From Candidatus Solibacter usitatus (GTDB lineage Bacteria > Acidobacteriota > Terriglobia > Bryobacterales > Bryobacteraceae): 43,066 bases of DNA. The stretch is from NCBI GenBank assembly GCA_016191645.1, contig JACPVQ010000016.1, positions 1 through 43,066 of the forward strand, read 5' to 3'. Shown piece after piece: positions 24,054 through 41,860 of the stretch. The first letter of the stretch is position 1, and each line of letters begins with the position of its first letter. Under the pieces are notes generated by a model, which saw only the letters and a list, made by a program, of their open reading frames with translations, was not told the DNA's origin and did not search any database. Made by a program: the position numbers and the translations under genes.

Positions 24054-24206
24054 GTGGGGCAGAACTCCAGTTCTGCGAGGCGATCTCCAGATCGCCTCTG
24101 CCGGAACTGATCGCGTCACCCGATCCGGCTGCCACGCAGCCGATGGCCTCTGTCGAGGCCATGCGGGATCTGGAGATCCCGCCGCGGGTCTGGAGACCCA
24201 CCCCAC
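24054..24206. repeat. Mirror-symmetric array of six palindromes (element A)
   Basis: The array is bounded by inverted GTGGGG (24054-24059) and CCCCAC (24201-24206). Inside are six perfect hairpins: CAGAACT/AGTTCTG (24060-24075), GAGGCGATCT/AGATCGCCTC (24077-24098), GGCTGC/GCAGCC (24127-24141), ATGGCCTC/GAGGCCAT (24143-24162), GCGGGATCT/AGATCCCGC (24163-24182) and GGGTCT/AGACCC (24186-24199). The first two are centred on CTCCAG and the last two on its reverse complement CTGGAG. It fills most of the gap between the PhoD-like and SMP-30-like genes, which point the same way. It is closely related to the element at 39752-39886. Confidence 0.85.
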
Positions 24207-27938: not shown

Positions 27939-27939
27939 C

Positions 27940-28028
27940 GAGGCTAAAGCCTCACGCAAGCTGAAGCTTGCCCCACAGCCCGAAGCATTTGTGGGGCAAG
28001 CTTCAGCTTGCGGCGGGCTTCAGCCCGC
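27940..28028. repeat. Mirror-symmetric palindrome array, GCTTCAGC type (element B)
   Basis: Four palindromes are present: GAGGCT/AGCCTC (27940-27953), GCAAGCT/AGCTTGC (27956-27971), a second GCAAGCT/AGCTTGC (27996-28011) and GCGGGCT/AGCCCGC (28013-28028). The left pair have AA or GA at the centre and the right pair TC, so orientation flips in the middle. The design matches elements A and C but with a different core. Confidence 0.85.
27956..28011. terminator. Large perfect stem-loop between converging genes
   Basis: The 22-bp segment 27956-27977 is the exact reverse complement of 27990-28011, with a 12-nt loop. The stem lies 17 bp after the mutS2 stop and 44 bp before the end of the convergent small gene, so it could terminate both directions. 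There is no T-run on either side, which makes a classical intrinsic terminator uncertain. Confidence 0.5.
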
Positions 28029-36953: not shown

Positions 36954-39746
36954 ATGCGCAAGTGCTTTCCGATCGTTTTGATTGCCAGTGGTGTGTTCGC
37001 GCAGGGCCCGCCCTCCACCGTCCAGATCGTCGCTCCAGCGAACAAGATGATCGCCGGCCAAACTCTGCAACTTACGGCGATTTCGCGTGATTCGAGCGGA
37101 GTGGAACGGCCCAACGATCAATTTACTTGGACCGTCGATAACGCGAATTTTGCGGCAGTGGAGACCAGCGGAGGATCCGTTACGCTCACCTCCAAAACGC
37201 TGGGAGTCGTCCGCGTCACCGCTCGTACAGGGAATATCACGAACAGTTCCTTGTTCCAGATTCTGCCCAAACGCGTCGTCATCACTCCGCCCAATATCAG
37301 TGTTACCGTTGGCGGGCAGATGCAGTTTTCCGCGGCCGCCATCGATATCAACGATAGGGTCTTGACGGGGGTAACGTTCTCCTGGTCCACAACCACTACC
37401 AATCTCGGCACCACGAACACGTCCACCATCGACCGCTTCGGAATGCTGAATACCGTGGCCGTAGGCAACATCTACGTGCGCGCCATTGTGGGGTACAACA
37501 GCGTAATCGCCGGATTCGATAATCAGGTGCATGCCATTGCGAATGTGTCGATACGCCCGCCGAAGAGTTATTCGTTGAAGAAGTTGGTCAGCGCCGGCGA
37601 CCTGATTCCGGGGCCTTTCGAATTGCGGGGCAGAATCCTGGCCATGCTCGGTAACGAGGAAGGGCAGATCGTTTTCAACTCGGCTTTGGACGGGCTTGTC
37701 AACGGGCCTTTGATGTACACGCATGGCAAGTGGGACCTGCTGGCGTACGGCGGTTTGGCGGGACTTCTGCCGCAGACGATGATTGCGGAGTTTCCGACCC
37801 TCGCGTTCAACAACAAAGGGGAGGTGCTCTCACTCACCACGGTGCTTTTCAGTGGAAATGTTATCTACAAGTTCGCTCTGGGCCAAAGGACTCCCCTGTT
37901 CGTCGACACGCAGCCGCTTCCGGGAACGGAGTTTCTCACCGGCCCTTCCATTAACAGGAATTGTTTGAACGATTCCAGTGACTGGCTGATGCGCGCGAAC
38001 TACCGTGTGGCTAATGCCGGTCCCACATTCAGCGGGCTGTTTTTTGTTCCCAATCGCGGCTCGGCCAACCAGATTGCGTCCACGATGAATCAGTTGCCCG
38101 ATTTTCCTTATCCCTTCACGTTGGATGCGGATTTCGGCCTCTCCGGAACCGGACTGATCTATTTCACAGCTACGAGTGGAGCGCGCCGCGCCCTGTTTGT
38201 CAGTGACTTCAGCAGCATCACGAAGGTGCTGGAGGTGGGAACCCCGCTACTGGGTTCCACAGTCTCGCGGTTCCTGGGGAACGGCTTCTACATGAACAAT
38301 GACGGCGACCTTGGAGTTGTAGTCGGTTTGGCCAACGGACAGCTGCATCTGTTGAAATACACCGGCGCAAAGTGGACCGCTCCCGCAAAGACGCTGCGCC
38401 TTAACAGCTTCAGCAATTTGTTCGGAATGAGCCGCGGCGCCGGAGCGTTGTTCCTTGGCGATGGCGGCAGAGGCTACGGATTGTATCTTTGGGATGGCAC
38501 TGACGCAAAGCTGGTGTTCCTGCAAAGCAACAATCAATATACCTTGCGTGGAAAAAGCGTCCCCCAACTCGATTGGGCCGCCGTTGGCGGCGAAGGAACG
38601 GTTCATTTCATGGTTCGTTCCCAGGACAACATCATGGAGTTGCTGCGTATCCGCCAAGGCGAGACTGCCGCACAGGTTGTGGTTTCTTCCGGCGACCCTG
38701 TCCCTATCAACGCCGCGCAGGTCTCCGTCCAAAACGTATTGGCTGGAGATCGCATGGGACCCGTGCATCTGTTGACCGGCGGCAGGGGCTCCAGCATCTT
38801 CCAGGTTCAGCCGGATGGGCAACTGGTGCGTTCTCTGCTGCATGGAGAACGGTATTCGCCGGTCCAATTGTTTACCGGCGCCAATACCGGCGATACGCGC
38901 AAAGTTTCCCCGGGCGATCTGTTCGTAACGCCCACGAATGGGGCCGGTGTACTTCGCGTCAAGGGATCGTCTTCCGATTTGGTGATCAAGCCGGGTTTGG
39001 CATTGCCGGACGGATCCACTATCAATGCGCCCACCTACATCGCGGGGAACGCGCGCGGCGACCTGCTGTTTAACGCGTCCACGAATCGCGGCGATACCAG
39101 GCTCGTCCTGATCCAAGGCGGGAGAAACGTCCAGTTGCTGACCAACAGCTCCGTGGCGGCGTACATCACCCAGGTGGATGGACAGGATGTTATCGGATGG
39201 TCGGATCAACTGGTGGATGAATCGGGACGAGTGATGGCCACGCTGCGCTTCCGCGACAACACTACCGTCCTCTACTTATGGCAAGGCGGGGAGTGGAAAA
39301 AAGTAGCTCGGGTATTGGAATCGCAGTTGAGTGGCGCTACGGTAAACTCCATTTCGCAAATACGAACGGCCGGAAATAGTTTCTACGCCATCTTCAATTT
39401 GCTGGGCATCGGAAACGTGCTGGCGCGCTATCAGACGGACAAATGGGAAAACGTGTTCGACGTGAACGAGGTTTTGGCCACCGGGAATCTGATGAACTCC
39501 ATTGGCAACTACGACGTCAACCGCAACGGCGATATTGTGGCGCAATGCAATACGAACACGCAGGTATTGGTGGTGAAGCGCGGCGCGAAAACCTACTACA
39601 TCCAGATGTTGACGGAATTGACGCCGGACGGCGACCTGCTCATCCGCACCAGCGACTTCGATATTCGCGACGACGGGACGGTCTACTTCCTTGGCATGAA
39701 CGTTCTGGACGAATACGCCCTGTACATGGCGAAACCGCTCAACTAA
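36954..39746 (+). CDS. Large secreted protein with Ig-like domains and propeller-like repeats
   Basis: The 930-residue protein has a signal peptide (MRKCFPIVLIASGVFAQ). Residues of about 20-105 and 106-200 are two BIG2-type immunoglobulin-like domains (STVQIVAPANKMIAGQTLQLTA; VVITPPNISVTVGGQMQFSA). The remaining ~700 residues are repeated beta units of about 50-70 residues with recurring FNNKGEV, MNNDGDL, VNRNGDI and IRDDGTVYF motifs. They resemble a beta-propeller or choice-of-anchor type fold. No catalytic residues stand out. It is the third gene after the DUF1549 and DUF1501 genes, so it probably binds the substrate or surface on which they act. A palindrome array follows directly. Confidence 0.8.
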   Translation: MRKCFPIVLIASGVFAQGPPSTVQIVAPANKMIAGQTLQLTAISRDSSGVERPNDQFTWTVDNANFAAVETSGGSVTLTSKTLGVVRVTARTGNITNSSLFQILPKRVVITPPNISVTVGGQMQFSAAAIDINDRVLTGVTFSWSTTTTNLGTTNTSTIDRFGMLNTVAVGNIYVRAIVGYNSVIAGFDNQVHAIANVSIRPPKSYSLKKLVSAGDLIPGPFELRGRILAMLGNEEGQIVFNSALDGLVNGPLMYTHGKWDLLAYGGLAGLLPQTMIAEFPTLAFNNKGEVLSLTTVLFSGNVIYKFALGQRTPLFVDTQPLPGTEFLTGPSINRNCLNDSSDWLMRANYRVANAGPTFSGLFFVPNRGSANQIASTMNQLPDFPYPFTLDADFGLSGTGLIYFTATSGARRALFVSDFSSITKVLEVGTPLLGSTVSRFLGNGFYMNNDGDLGVVVGLANGQLHLLKYTGAKWTAPAKTLRLNSFSNLFGMSRGAGALFLGDGGRGYGLYLWDGTDAKLVFLQSNNQYTLRGKSVPQLDWAAVGGEGTVHFMVRSQDNIMELLRIRQGETAAQVVVSSGDPVPINAAQVSVQNVLAGDRMGPVHLLTGGRGSSIFQVQPDGQLVRSLLHGERYSPVQLFTGANTGDTRKVSPGDLFVTPTNGAGVLRVKGSSSDLVIKPGLALPDGSTINAPTYIAGNARGDLLFNASTNRGDTRLVLIQGGRNVQLLTNSSVAAYITQVDGQDVIGWSDQLVDESGRVMATLRFRDNTTVLYLWQGGEWKKVARVLESQLSGATVNSISQIRTAGNSFYAIFNLLGIGNVLARYQTDKWENVFDVNEVLATGNLMNSIGNYDVNRNGDIVAQCNTNTQVLVVKRGAKTYYIQMLTELTPDGDLLIRTSDFDIRDDGTVYFLGMNVLDEYALYMAKPLN

Positions 39747-39751
39747 CCTTC

Positions 39752-39886
39752 GTGGGGCAGACCTCCAGGTCTGCGAGGCGGTCTCCAGACCGCCTCTGTT
39801 GGGAGTACTCGCAATCTCCATGGCGGCCACTTCGCGGCCGAGGCGGGGTCTGGAGACCCCGCCGCAGATTTGGAGATCTGCCCCAC
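39752..39886. repeat. Mirror-symmetric array of palindromes (element C)
   Basis: Ten-base inverted ends GTGGGGCAGA (39752-39761) and TCTGCCCCAC (39877-39886) enclose hairpins CAGACCT/AGGTCTG (39758-39773), GAGGCGGTCT/AGACCGCCTC (39775-39796), CGGCC/GGCCG (39824-39840), GGCGGGGTCT/AGACCCCGCC (39842-39863) and CAGATTT/AGATCTG (39865-39880). The last stem has one T-G pair, which still forms in plus-strand RNA. The left two are centred on CTCCAG and the right two on CTGGAG or TTGGAG. The element fills the gap between two convergent genes, ending at the OPT stop codon. Confidence 0.88.
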
Positions 39887-41860
39887 TTAAGTTTTTCTGG
39901 CCCGCAGAGGCAGCCACAACAGAACCAGCGCGAGCATGGCGAAACCGGCCAGGGAAAGCCACCCGCCCCATTGCGGGAAGAAGCCGAGAGCCTCTTTTCC
40001 AATCAGCCATTGAGTGAACGAAGGGATGCCGGCAAGGTAGGTCACTGCAAGAACGATACCGGCGATCGCCTCCCCGGACACTAATCCCGACGCCAGCAGA
40101 ATCCCACGCTCCTCAGCCTTAGCACGCTGCTGCTCCAGCCACGTGGAGGTGATCTTGTCGCTGATCAGTTTCAGCAGGCCTCCCAGGAAAATGGCGGAGG
40201 TTGTATCAAATGGCAGATACATTCCTACGGCAACCAGCATCGGCGCGCGCGCGCCGCAAAGAATGAGAGCGAATCCGAACGCAACCCCGATTCCAAGCAG
40301 TCCCCAGGCCATCTGGCCGCCCACAATTCCGATGGCAAGCTGCGCCATCAGGCCTGCCTGTGGAGCGGGCAAGGCTTTTCCGCCGATGCCGCCTGTCGCC
40401 AGGTTCGCCTCGTGCAGCGCGATGATGGGCCCCATGAGGAAAAACGACAGCAGCACGACGGCGAGAATCTCCACCAATTGCATCTTCCATGGAGTTCCGC
40501 CAAGCAGGTGTCCCGCTTTCAAATCCTGAATCAATGACCCGGAAACACTGCATGCGCAAGCCACCACCGCCGCGACACCGAGCACGGCGGCAATTCCGGG
40601 CGCGCCCTTGAGCCCCATGGTAAGAATCGCCAGCGCCGCAATCAGCAGGCCCGACAACGTGAGGCCCGACAGCGGCTGATTGGAGCTTCCCACCAATCCA
40701 ACCAGATATGCGCCGCACGCGCAAAGCAGGAATCCCGCAAGGGCCATCACTAACGCCGTGACAGTGGCTGCGGCGAAGTTGTCAGTGAAGTGCCAGTAGA
40801 TTCCCGTTATCGGAACCAAGAGCGCGATGATTCCGGCGAGCACCCACCGCAGCGGAATGTCGCGCTCAGTGGGAATGGCTGACTCCGCCAATGTTTTTGC
40901 GGAGGCACTGAGCGCGCCTCGAAACGACTGTATCAAGGATTGGCGAATGGACCACATGGTACTTGCGGCGGCCACCAGCATCGCGCCAACGGCAATGGGC
41001 CTCACGATATTGCGCCACAAACTGGCCGCCAGCACATCGGGTGTTCCGCCCGTTCCGAAACGGCGCGCAAGGTCGGGATCGAGGAAAAGCAGCAGCGGGA
41101 TGAGGAGCCACCAGGCGATGAGGCCGCCGGAAAATGTAACGGCGGAAGGAACGAACCCTATGATGTAACCGATCCCGGTGAGCGCCGGCGACAGACTCGG
41201 CGTGGACCAGGCGATGCCTCCGCCGTGTCTAACCGCTTGTCCACCCGTGTGTTGAATCAGGGAGGAGGGAAATGTCAGGAAGCCTTCAGTGTATTCGCGG
41301 AAGATCTGCACGCCCTTGTCCGACTTCAGGAATTGCATCAGCGCACCGAAACCCATGGACGCGAAAATGACGCGCGCGGCGCTGCCCGATTCGGCCGCCG
41401 CTTTGACAATCTCCGCGCTGGCGACACTTTCCGGCCATGGCAACTGCGCGTCGACGCACAAGGGCCGGCGTAAAGGAATGACGAAGAGGACGCCGATGAG
41501 TCCGCCGGCGAGAAGGATGAGGGTCGCCTCCCAGTAGTGAGAGCGGAGATCCGTCCATATTCGCGTACCGCCGGTCTCGGCAAGAACAAACGATGGAATG
41601 GTGAAGATTGCGCCGGCGACCAGCGCTTCCCCGACGCTTCCCGCCGTACGAACAATATTCTGCTCCAGGATGGTCCCGCGAAATGCCGGCAGCCGGAACA
41701 ACGCCAATGCGATGACAGCGGCTGGAATGGTTGCCGCTATGGTCTGGCCGGCGCGCAACCCAAGGTAAGCGTTGGCAGCCCCGAAAACAAAGGCGAGAAA
41801 AAGCCCAAGCGCCACCGCTTTGATGGTCAGCTCGGCGTCCTGCGGCTTCGATGCGTTCAT
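39887..41860 (-). CDS. OPT-family oligopeptide/metal-chelate transporter
   Basis: The 657-residue membrane protein has about 14-16 hydrophobic helices. OPT landmarks are LGLFLAFVFGAANAYLGLRAGQT, RTAGSVGEALVAGAIFTIPSF, LPWPESVASAEI, SLSPALTGIGYIIGF and SGSLIQDLKAGHLLG. Bacterial members of this family import peptides or metal-siderophore complexes using proton gradients. The substrate cannot be inferred. Its start overlaps the stop of the upstream secreted-protein gene by 4 bp (ATGA), so the two are co-translated. Confidence 0.93.
   Translation of the reverse strand: MNASKPQDAELTIKAVALGLFLAFVFGAANAYLGLRAGQTIAATIPAAVIALALFRLPAFRGTILEQNIVRTAGSVGEALVAGAIFTIPSFVLAETGGTRIWTDLRSHYWEATLILLAGGLIGVLFVIPLRRPLCVDAQLPWPESVASAEIVKAAAESGSAARVIFASMGFGALMQFLKSDKGVQIFREYTEGFLTFPSSLIQHTGGQAVRHGGGIAWSTPSLSPALTGIGYIIGFVPSAVTFSGGLIAWWLLIPLLLFLDPDLARRFGTGGTPDVLAASLWRNIVRPIAVGAMLVAAASTMWSIRQSLIQSFRGALSASAKTLAESAIPTERDIPLRWVLAGIIALLVPITGIYWHFTDNFAAATVTALVMALAGFLLCACGAYLVGLVGSSNQPLSGLTLSGLLIAALAILTMGLKGAPGIAAVLGVAAVVACACSVSGSLIQDLKAGHLLGGTPWKMQLVEILAVVLLSFFLMGPIIALHEANLATGGIGGKALPAPQAGLMAQLAIGIVGGQMAWGLLGIGVAFGFALILCGARAPMLVAVGMYLPFDTTSAIFLGGLLKLISDKITSTWLEQQRAKAEERGILLASGLVSGEAIAGIVLAVTYLAGIPSFTQWLIGKEALGFFPQWGGWLSLAGFAMLALVLLWLPLRARKT

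Follow-up and report, generated by a model that had tools for sequence, protein, structure and literature searches.

The row of palindromes at 39752-39886 is very probably a non-autonomous mobile element of the REPIN/MITE-like kind, composed of the two ends of a RAYT (REP-associated tyrosine transposase, HuH superfamily) unit without the gene between them. The family of gene-less RAYT-type elements to which it belongs is real and well bounded, and its transposition is suggested by the dispersal of the copies and by the ends they share with a transposase-bearing unit. The window, i.e. the whole analyzed stretch of 43,066 nucleotides from Candidatus Solibacter usitatus, a soil acidobacterium, contains the following features:

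36954-39746, + strand: upstream gene encoding 930 amino acids, stop codon ending at 39746
39752-39886, no strand assigned: whole element, a family copy of 135 bp as read from the sequence (commonest length among 58 copies: 153 bp)
39752-39756, + strand: left foot GTGGG, i.e. the tag GTGG one nucleotide ahead of the hairpin; no variation at these positions across an alignment of 22 copies of 153 bp
39757-39774, + strand: hairpin 1 (outer left), GCAGACCTCCAGGTCTGC, from sequence and covariation set
39775-39796, + strand: hairpin 2 (inner left), GAGGCGGTCTCCAGACCGCCTC, from sequence, self-match to the reverse complement and covariation set
39797-39823, no strand assigned: variable spacer; the same place holds the transposase gene in a 717-bp unit
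39824-39840, + strand: hairpin 3 with one mismatch, CGGCCACTTCGCGGCCG, from sequence, alignment and covariation set
39842-39863, + strand: hairpin 5 (inner right), GGCGGGGTCTGGAGACCCCGCC, from sequence, self-match to the reverse complement and covariation set
39864-39881, + strand: hairpin 6 (outer right) with one T-G pair, GCAGATTTGGAGATCTGC, from sequence and covariation set
39882-39886, + strand: right foot CCCAC, the left foot inverted, but less conserved among the copies than the left one
39887-41860, - strand: convergent gene encoding an OPT family oligopeptide transporter, stop codon at 39887-39889
24054-24206, + strand: second family copy in the window, 153 bp, between two same-direction genes

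The original prediction had let the element start 5 bp behind one stop codon and end directly at the other, which is exact, and the inverted ends of 10 bp that it described were recovered (GTGGGGCAGA/TCTGCCCCAC). The mirror symmetry was recovered as well, since the element matches its own reverse complement in its outer parts. Concerning the cores said to be shared within each half, CTCCAG occurs in both left palindromes and CTGGAG in the inner right one, but the outer right palindrome carries TTGGAG and is one base off. The array is unevenly built: a left end of two hairpins is followed by the variable spacer and a right end of three hairpins, compared to four in the 153-bp copies, as hairpin 4 (ATGGCCTC..GAGGCCAT) is missing from the focal copy. 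The 930-aa product of the upstream gene had neither a Pfam match (E 1e-8) nor an NCBIfam match (E 0.001).

The host assembly comprises 4,467,732 bases (4.47 Mb) on 267 contigs and is 79% complete. A BLAST search of this assembly with the element yielded at least 85 matches, full-length ones included, with 40 of 271 candidates scored. The terminal 23-mer was found with up to two mismatches at 181 forward and 184 reverse sites, while the reversed pattern gave none on either strand; the original prediction had been made dependent on the element not being single-copy, and it withstood this check. Within the window and 71 further loci of the host genome (72 sources in all) 145 terminal units with up to four mismatches were detected, which resulted in 58 distinct two-ended copies. 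These are 98-187 bp long and 23 of them measure exactly 153 bp. Another 25 terminal units are unpaired, including two which flank a RAYT gene on contig C62. The 153-bp form starts on the left with the GTGGG foot, continues with hairpins 1 and 2, which share TCTCCAGA in the consensus, and then has a spacer of 27 columns; on the right side hairpins 3 and 4 are followed by hairpins 5 and 6, which share TCTGGAGA, and by CCCAC. Behind GTGG and one further nucleotide an 8-bp stem begins. Rfam contained no family that reached its gathering score across the window. Terminal units are also located at several contig ends of the host assembly G000 (e.g., C82:3, C87:1, C9:70, C62:19 and C71:55), so that assembly breaks may be caused by the repeat, and the true number of copies is probably higher.

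Many element ends are adjoined by other repeats, which we count against the RAYT-based explanation. One is a satellite of about 66 bp, GTACTACTA..CTCTGAAATCTTCCCA..TTTGGTTGCGGCTGTGCTGCTCT, which was seen in locus L202 (G000:C150:4600-5500, positions 302-564) and also in L203, L205 and L206. It forms head-to-tail stacks, with at most four units seen per locus, at a fixed polarity relative to the GTGG edge of the element, and in L204 it is inverted and lies on the opposite side of the element. The two parts of this satellite occur at 115 and 67 genome sites, respectively (up to three mismatches). A second flanking module, GGGGCCCACGAATCGTGATGAAAACCGAT, adjoins six element ends (L010, L011, L015, L025, L088 and L092). 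In four of the six an extra CTCCAG hairpin precedes the module, hence larger mosaics exist.

A Pfam Y1_Tnp search of the host assembly identified two genes, one on contig C62 and one on C167. The first is part of a unit of 717 bp (G000:C62), which starts with hairpins 1 and 2 and TGCCGGAAGT, ends with hairpins 3-6 and carries the RAYT gene in between. Compared without gaps to the 58 gene-less copies, the ends of this unit agree in a median of 48 of 55 positions on the left and 65 of 78 on the right; among the ten best gene-less copies listed, agreement reaches 55/55 and 72/78, respectively. The focal array thus owes its mirror symmetry to the paired ends of a RAYT unit, which contradicts the original view that it does not resemble a transposon. 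The encoded protein of 180 aa scored 83.4 bits with the NCBIfam model REP_Tyr_transpos, above the equivalog cut-off of 80, and 30.3 bits with transpos_IS200, below the cut-off of 55. Y1_Tnp was its only Pfam match at E 0.001, without a match to a C-terminal helix-turn-helix, and all 17 RAYTs in an alignment carry the HuH and YIxxNP motifs unchanged. In a sequence comparison with solved structures, other Y1 transposases came out best (2xm3, E 6e-4). TnpA-REP (4er8) matches less well (E 0.009), which we count against a RAYT-driven origin, as well as the fact that a single RAYT with these ends was found in the 79%-complete assembly. No stretch of the gene interior was detected in the gene-less copies at E 0.1; together with the single RAYT this leaves a deletion origin of the copies from the C62 unit itself without support. 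The transposase which moves the gene-less element is probably the RAYT of this longer copy.

The RAYT on C167 adjoins a different repeat with the same foot and the core CTTCAG, and the corresponding terminal unit occurs at 14 genome sites (up to three mismatches), two of them in the window. There, at 27939-28028, two ends of the CTTCAG-core family (foot GTGGG followed by a further G, i.e. GTGGGG) face each other directly behind the stop codon of a gene encoding a MutS_V/Smr-domain protein, which is another convergent gap. The RAYT of this second family is probably the one on C167. A full gene-less element belonging to the family of this RAYT lies upstream of it (L032, 1420-2160); no matching end was found downstream, and thus the C167 RAYT is not enclosed, unlike the C62 gene.

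The position of the copies relative to genes was evaluated with two home-made gene callers. The longest-ORF caller assigned 32 of the 58 copies to the inside of ORFs, 18 to convergent, five to tandem and one to divergent gaps and two to edges; this was judged to be spurious read-through and the caller was replaced. With the codon-scored caller 51 copies could be classified, of which 28 are located in convergent, 21 in same-direction and two in divergent gaps; four further copies lie at edges and three inside a predicted gene. The comparison gaps, which stem from the same loci and hence from loci picked for holding copies, comprise 12 convergent, 88 same-direction and 21 divergent ones (n=121; Fisher p 1e-9). 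Restricting the comparison to the window, where a manual count gave four convergent gaps out of 27, two of these with palindrome elements, resulted in a binomial p of 3e-11. Moreover, 19 of 77 neighboring gene 3' ends are only -1 to 6 bp away from the element. A similar preference of REPs in other bacteria is described in section 15 of PMC3733652.

Such a distribution would also be expected if the array served the host as a bidirectional terminator or mRNA 3'-end protector, which stops or stabilizes the transcripts of both convergent genes and is kept for this reason, and the strong folding as RNA speaks for it as well: a 151-nt stretch folds at -96.7 kcal/mol compared to -58.0 (sd 4.1) for 200 dinucleotide shuffles, none of which folded as well (z -9.5). 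However, no site resembling an intrinsic terminator was found at 39500-40100, and in none of the 116 terminal hairpins of the 58 copies a T-tract (at least five T in eight) follows, so that the bidirectional terminator proposed originally, if understood as intrinsic, did not hold. A function for the host would leave the transposase unit with the same ends unexplained, and selection against harmful insertions would yield the same bias in location. We therefore regard this explanation as unlikely. An effect on termination or transcript protection may exist secondarily, and a putative role as RNA at the 3' ends of genes is conceivable.

The minimum-energy fold of the single strand is a long stem which pairs the left half with the right half. 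The covariation among the copies points to a different structure. For this analysis 22 of the 23 copies of 153 bp were used (L090 has a different arrangement and was dropped). The six local hairpins are paired in 98.7% of the pair cells, and changes on both sides were observed in 12 pairs and 31 cells, compared to 3.6 and 5.2 in shuffled data, with 0 of 500 shuffles reaching either value; kinship alone, without selection, can raise copies above shuffled data. When the hairpins were slid out of register, only 0-2 double-changed pairs and 0-3 cells were left. The long stem as maintained structure was rejected despite its lowest energy and 88.3% paired cells, as its four pairs and five cells with double changes are barely above the shuffled means of 2.3 and 3.2. 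What is maintained is thus a row of short hairpins, though a lone RNA strand would favor the long stem.

The compensated changes could, instead of selection, also come from an arm-by-arm correction, and the copies are mosaics in the hairpin stems and in the flanking modules. Both would fit palindromes that are no longer mobile and are kept alike solely by gene conversion and template switching (quasi-palindrome correction). We consider this quite improbable, since it explains neither why the family is dispersed over many sites, with sharp GTGG/CCAC boundaries and a preference for T, nor why the RAYT lies inside the same ends. A mobile palindromic repeat, which was among the alternatives of the original prediction, is in turn strongly supported by the dispersed, sharp-ended family and the transposase unit with the same ends; the movement itself is deduced from these.

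The insertion sites show no target duplication in 55 of 58 copies and one of 2 bp in the remaining three, which is the same as for shuffled pairing. The base in front of the foot is a T in 66% of the 53 ends without a flanking module. A classical MITE, moved by a DDE transposase via its inverted ends under target duplication, would account for the length of 98-187 bp, the inverted ends and the high copy number, but is highly improbable given that target duplication does not exceed chance in 58 copies and that the Y1_Tnp search placed a transposase gene of the HuH Y1 type within these ends.

Empty sites were searched for at three loci in the four genomes of the same genus; for their choice 13 neighboring gene pairs were annotated, two of which were used. 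At these loci neither an empty site nor an insertion polymorphism was found, which counts against the RAYT-based explanation and is due to neighboring genes not being kept together in the four genomes. The OPT gene is present in all four, and the 930-aa neighbor is absent from the flanks examined at 4/4 loci, of which L104 ends about 230 bases behind the OPT gene and is uninformative on this point. The MoeA/DUF5612 pair around another copy is placed on separate contigs in three of four genomes, and the fourth matches one gene only. For the gene behind FtsK beside the third copy, no match was obtained in the flanks of the four FtsK loci.

The mobile-element reading leads us to a mechanism that follows the architecture of the ends. 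Each end has a GTGG foot and, behind it, at least two hairpins in tandem, and because the right end mirrors the left one, a GTGG-hairpin of the same form stands at the 5' side of each DNA strand. During a single-stranded DNA stage, e.g., on the lagging-strand template, the RAYT from the longer unit would bind foot and hairpins via the apical core TCTCCAGA. It would cut at the feet, and the strand would be rejoined elsewhere, mostly after a T and without target duplication. Insertions in genes or promoters would be lost, so that survivors accumulate behind stop codons and above all between convergent genes. The family would presumably still be active today.

Relatives were investigated in 150 genomes of the host's taxonomic family. 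A RAYT match (E 1e-10 or better) was obtained in 73 and at least one terminal unit (up to two mismatches) in 50 of them; the reversed control gave four matches in total, one each in G020, G026, G037 and G044, so one or two units may be due to chance and a threshold of five units was set. RAYT matches occur in 18 of the 22 genomes with at least five units and in 55 of the 128 others (p 9e-4). Four of the unit-rich genomes (G038, G048, G095 and G119) yielded no RAYT match at E 1e-10, which counts against a strict link of RAYT and unit. Within the four same-genus genomes, two lack both; the other two have a RAYT match, accompanied by 28 units in one case and by just one unit in the other. G020, G065 and G101 harbor 10-11 RAYT matches each, with varying identity to the query.

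The ends were surveyed at 31 RAYT loci, i.e. C167 and the 30 best-match loci. A foot with two tandem hairpins was found on the left side in 20, on the right in 21 and on both sides in 15 of them, compared to four of 330 control segments and two of 1240 shuffled ones; five of the 31 have no tandem end on either side, which again counts against the RAYT-based origin. Among the best 80 of 545 named-genome loci, with taxon groups assigned from record titles, tandem ends on either side were present in 15 of 24 loci from Bryobacterales and like titles, in one of 11 from other Acidobacteriota and in two of 45 from other phyla. Related Bryobacterales RAYTs thus often possess such tandem-hairpin ends, each with a core of its own that tracks the RAYT sequence. 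G063, which belongs to another genus of the same family, contains gene-less tandem-hairpin units in six of seven sites inspected by eye, and at site L228 four hairpins are located between both feet. G037, a related species, has single palindromes only in five of six sites read, perhaps a simpler relative of the present form. Its loci (L214-L219, L223) include single palindromes such as GTGGGGCAGGCCTCCTGGCCTGCC as well as a RAYT with single-palindrome ends.

For a comparison of the cores the nine apical bases were taken from 39 non-duplicate units, each having a double end on one side or both. Within a unit, the similarity is 0.85 between the outer hairpins (n 22) and 0.87 between the inner ones (n 22), and 0.64-0.67 between outer and inner hairpins (n 22-32); between units it is 0.39 (sd 0.20). 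The set for relating cores to enzymes was reduced from 43 to 39 units by removal of four near-duplicate RAYTs and to 37 by removal of two loci from other phyla. In these 37 units core similarity correlates with RAYT identity (r 0.43, 0 of 5000 permutations), in a Mantel test that ignores phylogeny, so that the association could partly reflect shared descent. For group 3 REPs, biochemical work has shown that recognition can depend on bases of the loop and that there is co-evolution of enzyme and REP (PMC8266576). Together with this biochemistry, the association favors recognition of the core by its own RAYT, which seems the likeliest reading. A further-reaching idea, which we offer tentatively and rate slightly below an even chance, is that the Bryobacterales RAYTs are not, or not only, domesticated genes but parts of compact tandem-hairpin transposons. 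Their private cores, common to all hairpins of a unit, would fit the own RAYT like lock and key, new RAYT lineages would bring new codes and the gene-less units would be amplification bursts under one code.

Among the known systems, the REPIN/BIME with RAYT (REPtron) of Pseudomonas and E. coli shares the GT[AG]G foot before a short hairpin, the two inverted feet around a spacer, the high copy number and a genomic RAYT bordered by the same units (PMC3116915, PMC6006769). REPIN/BIME units carry GTAG or GTGG 0-2 nt ahead of a short hairpin; in the present family GTGG lies 1 nt before the hairpin, the inverted pairs are dispersed and the RAYT is bordered by the same units. The canonical form, as read from the descriptions, has one hairpin per foot; here two or more tandem hairpins stand under one foot at both ends, and therefore we call the family a variant of REPIN/BIME. 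It also differs in that the RAYT gene is located exactly between the repeat ends and that gene-less and gene-bearing forms share both ends. We know of no biochemistry on the present family. The group 3 REPs of Stenotrophomonas and Marinomonas are perfect palindromes with perfect short stems, as here, and their crucial loop positions parallel the conserved apical core; the Stenotrophomonas model REP has one hairpin per foot, unlike the tandem hairpins described above (PMC8266576).

The TIRYT/TIRtron of Acidobacteria (Koribacter and others) resembles the C62 unit in its Y1 transposase gene between inverted ends (PMC3733652). Some TIRYT ends are called "double palindromic" in a figure legend and some form repeat families (PMC3733652). 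An overlap with these ends is possible and part of the architecture may already be in print; the family is set apart on the basis of the text descriptions (PMC3733652). For TIRYT subclass 2.1 the sequence GGGGWSAS is mentioned for some TIRs only (PMC3733652, section 16) and a helix-turn-helix in PMC6006769. Here, GGGGWSAS is absent from the ends, which read GTGGGGCAGA, and no helix-turn-helix was seen. Solibacter usitatus, in which class 3 TnpA-Y1 occurs, is a species we take to belong to the same order as the present host. Section 27 of PMC6006769 describes for its class 3 TnpA-Y1 about 600 structures, a CnGA foot and a Y....Q motif, and thus high-copy flanking structures of an atypical kind; the foot in the present family is GTGG and the motif YIxxNP. 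The Solibacter genome paper mentions numerous short repeats, and the repeat is not described in its accessible text on them (PMC3174227). Within the portions of the literature on Solibacter and Acidobacteria repeats, REPIN/RAYT and TIRYT that were available, no description of the family was found, the nearest systems being TIRYT and the Solibacter class 3.

The family bears on how REPINs originate and how RAYTs recognize their own repeats. In the present lineage a single genome holds both a gene-bearing and a gene-less form that share their ends, the architecture allows foot, outer hairpin and inner hairpin to be tested separately, and 37 natural pairs of RAYT and core are available for asking if the apical core is a recognition code. 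Palindrome arrays of this kind, which genome readers easily mistake for terminators, are explained by RAYT-type elements.
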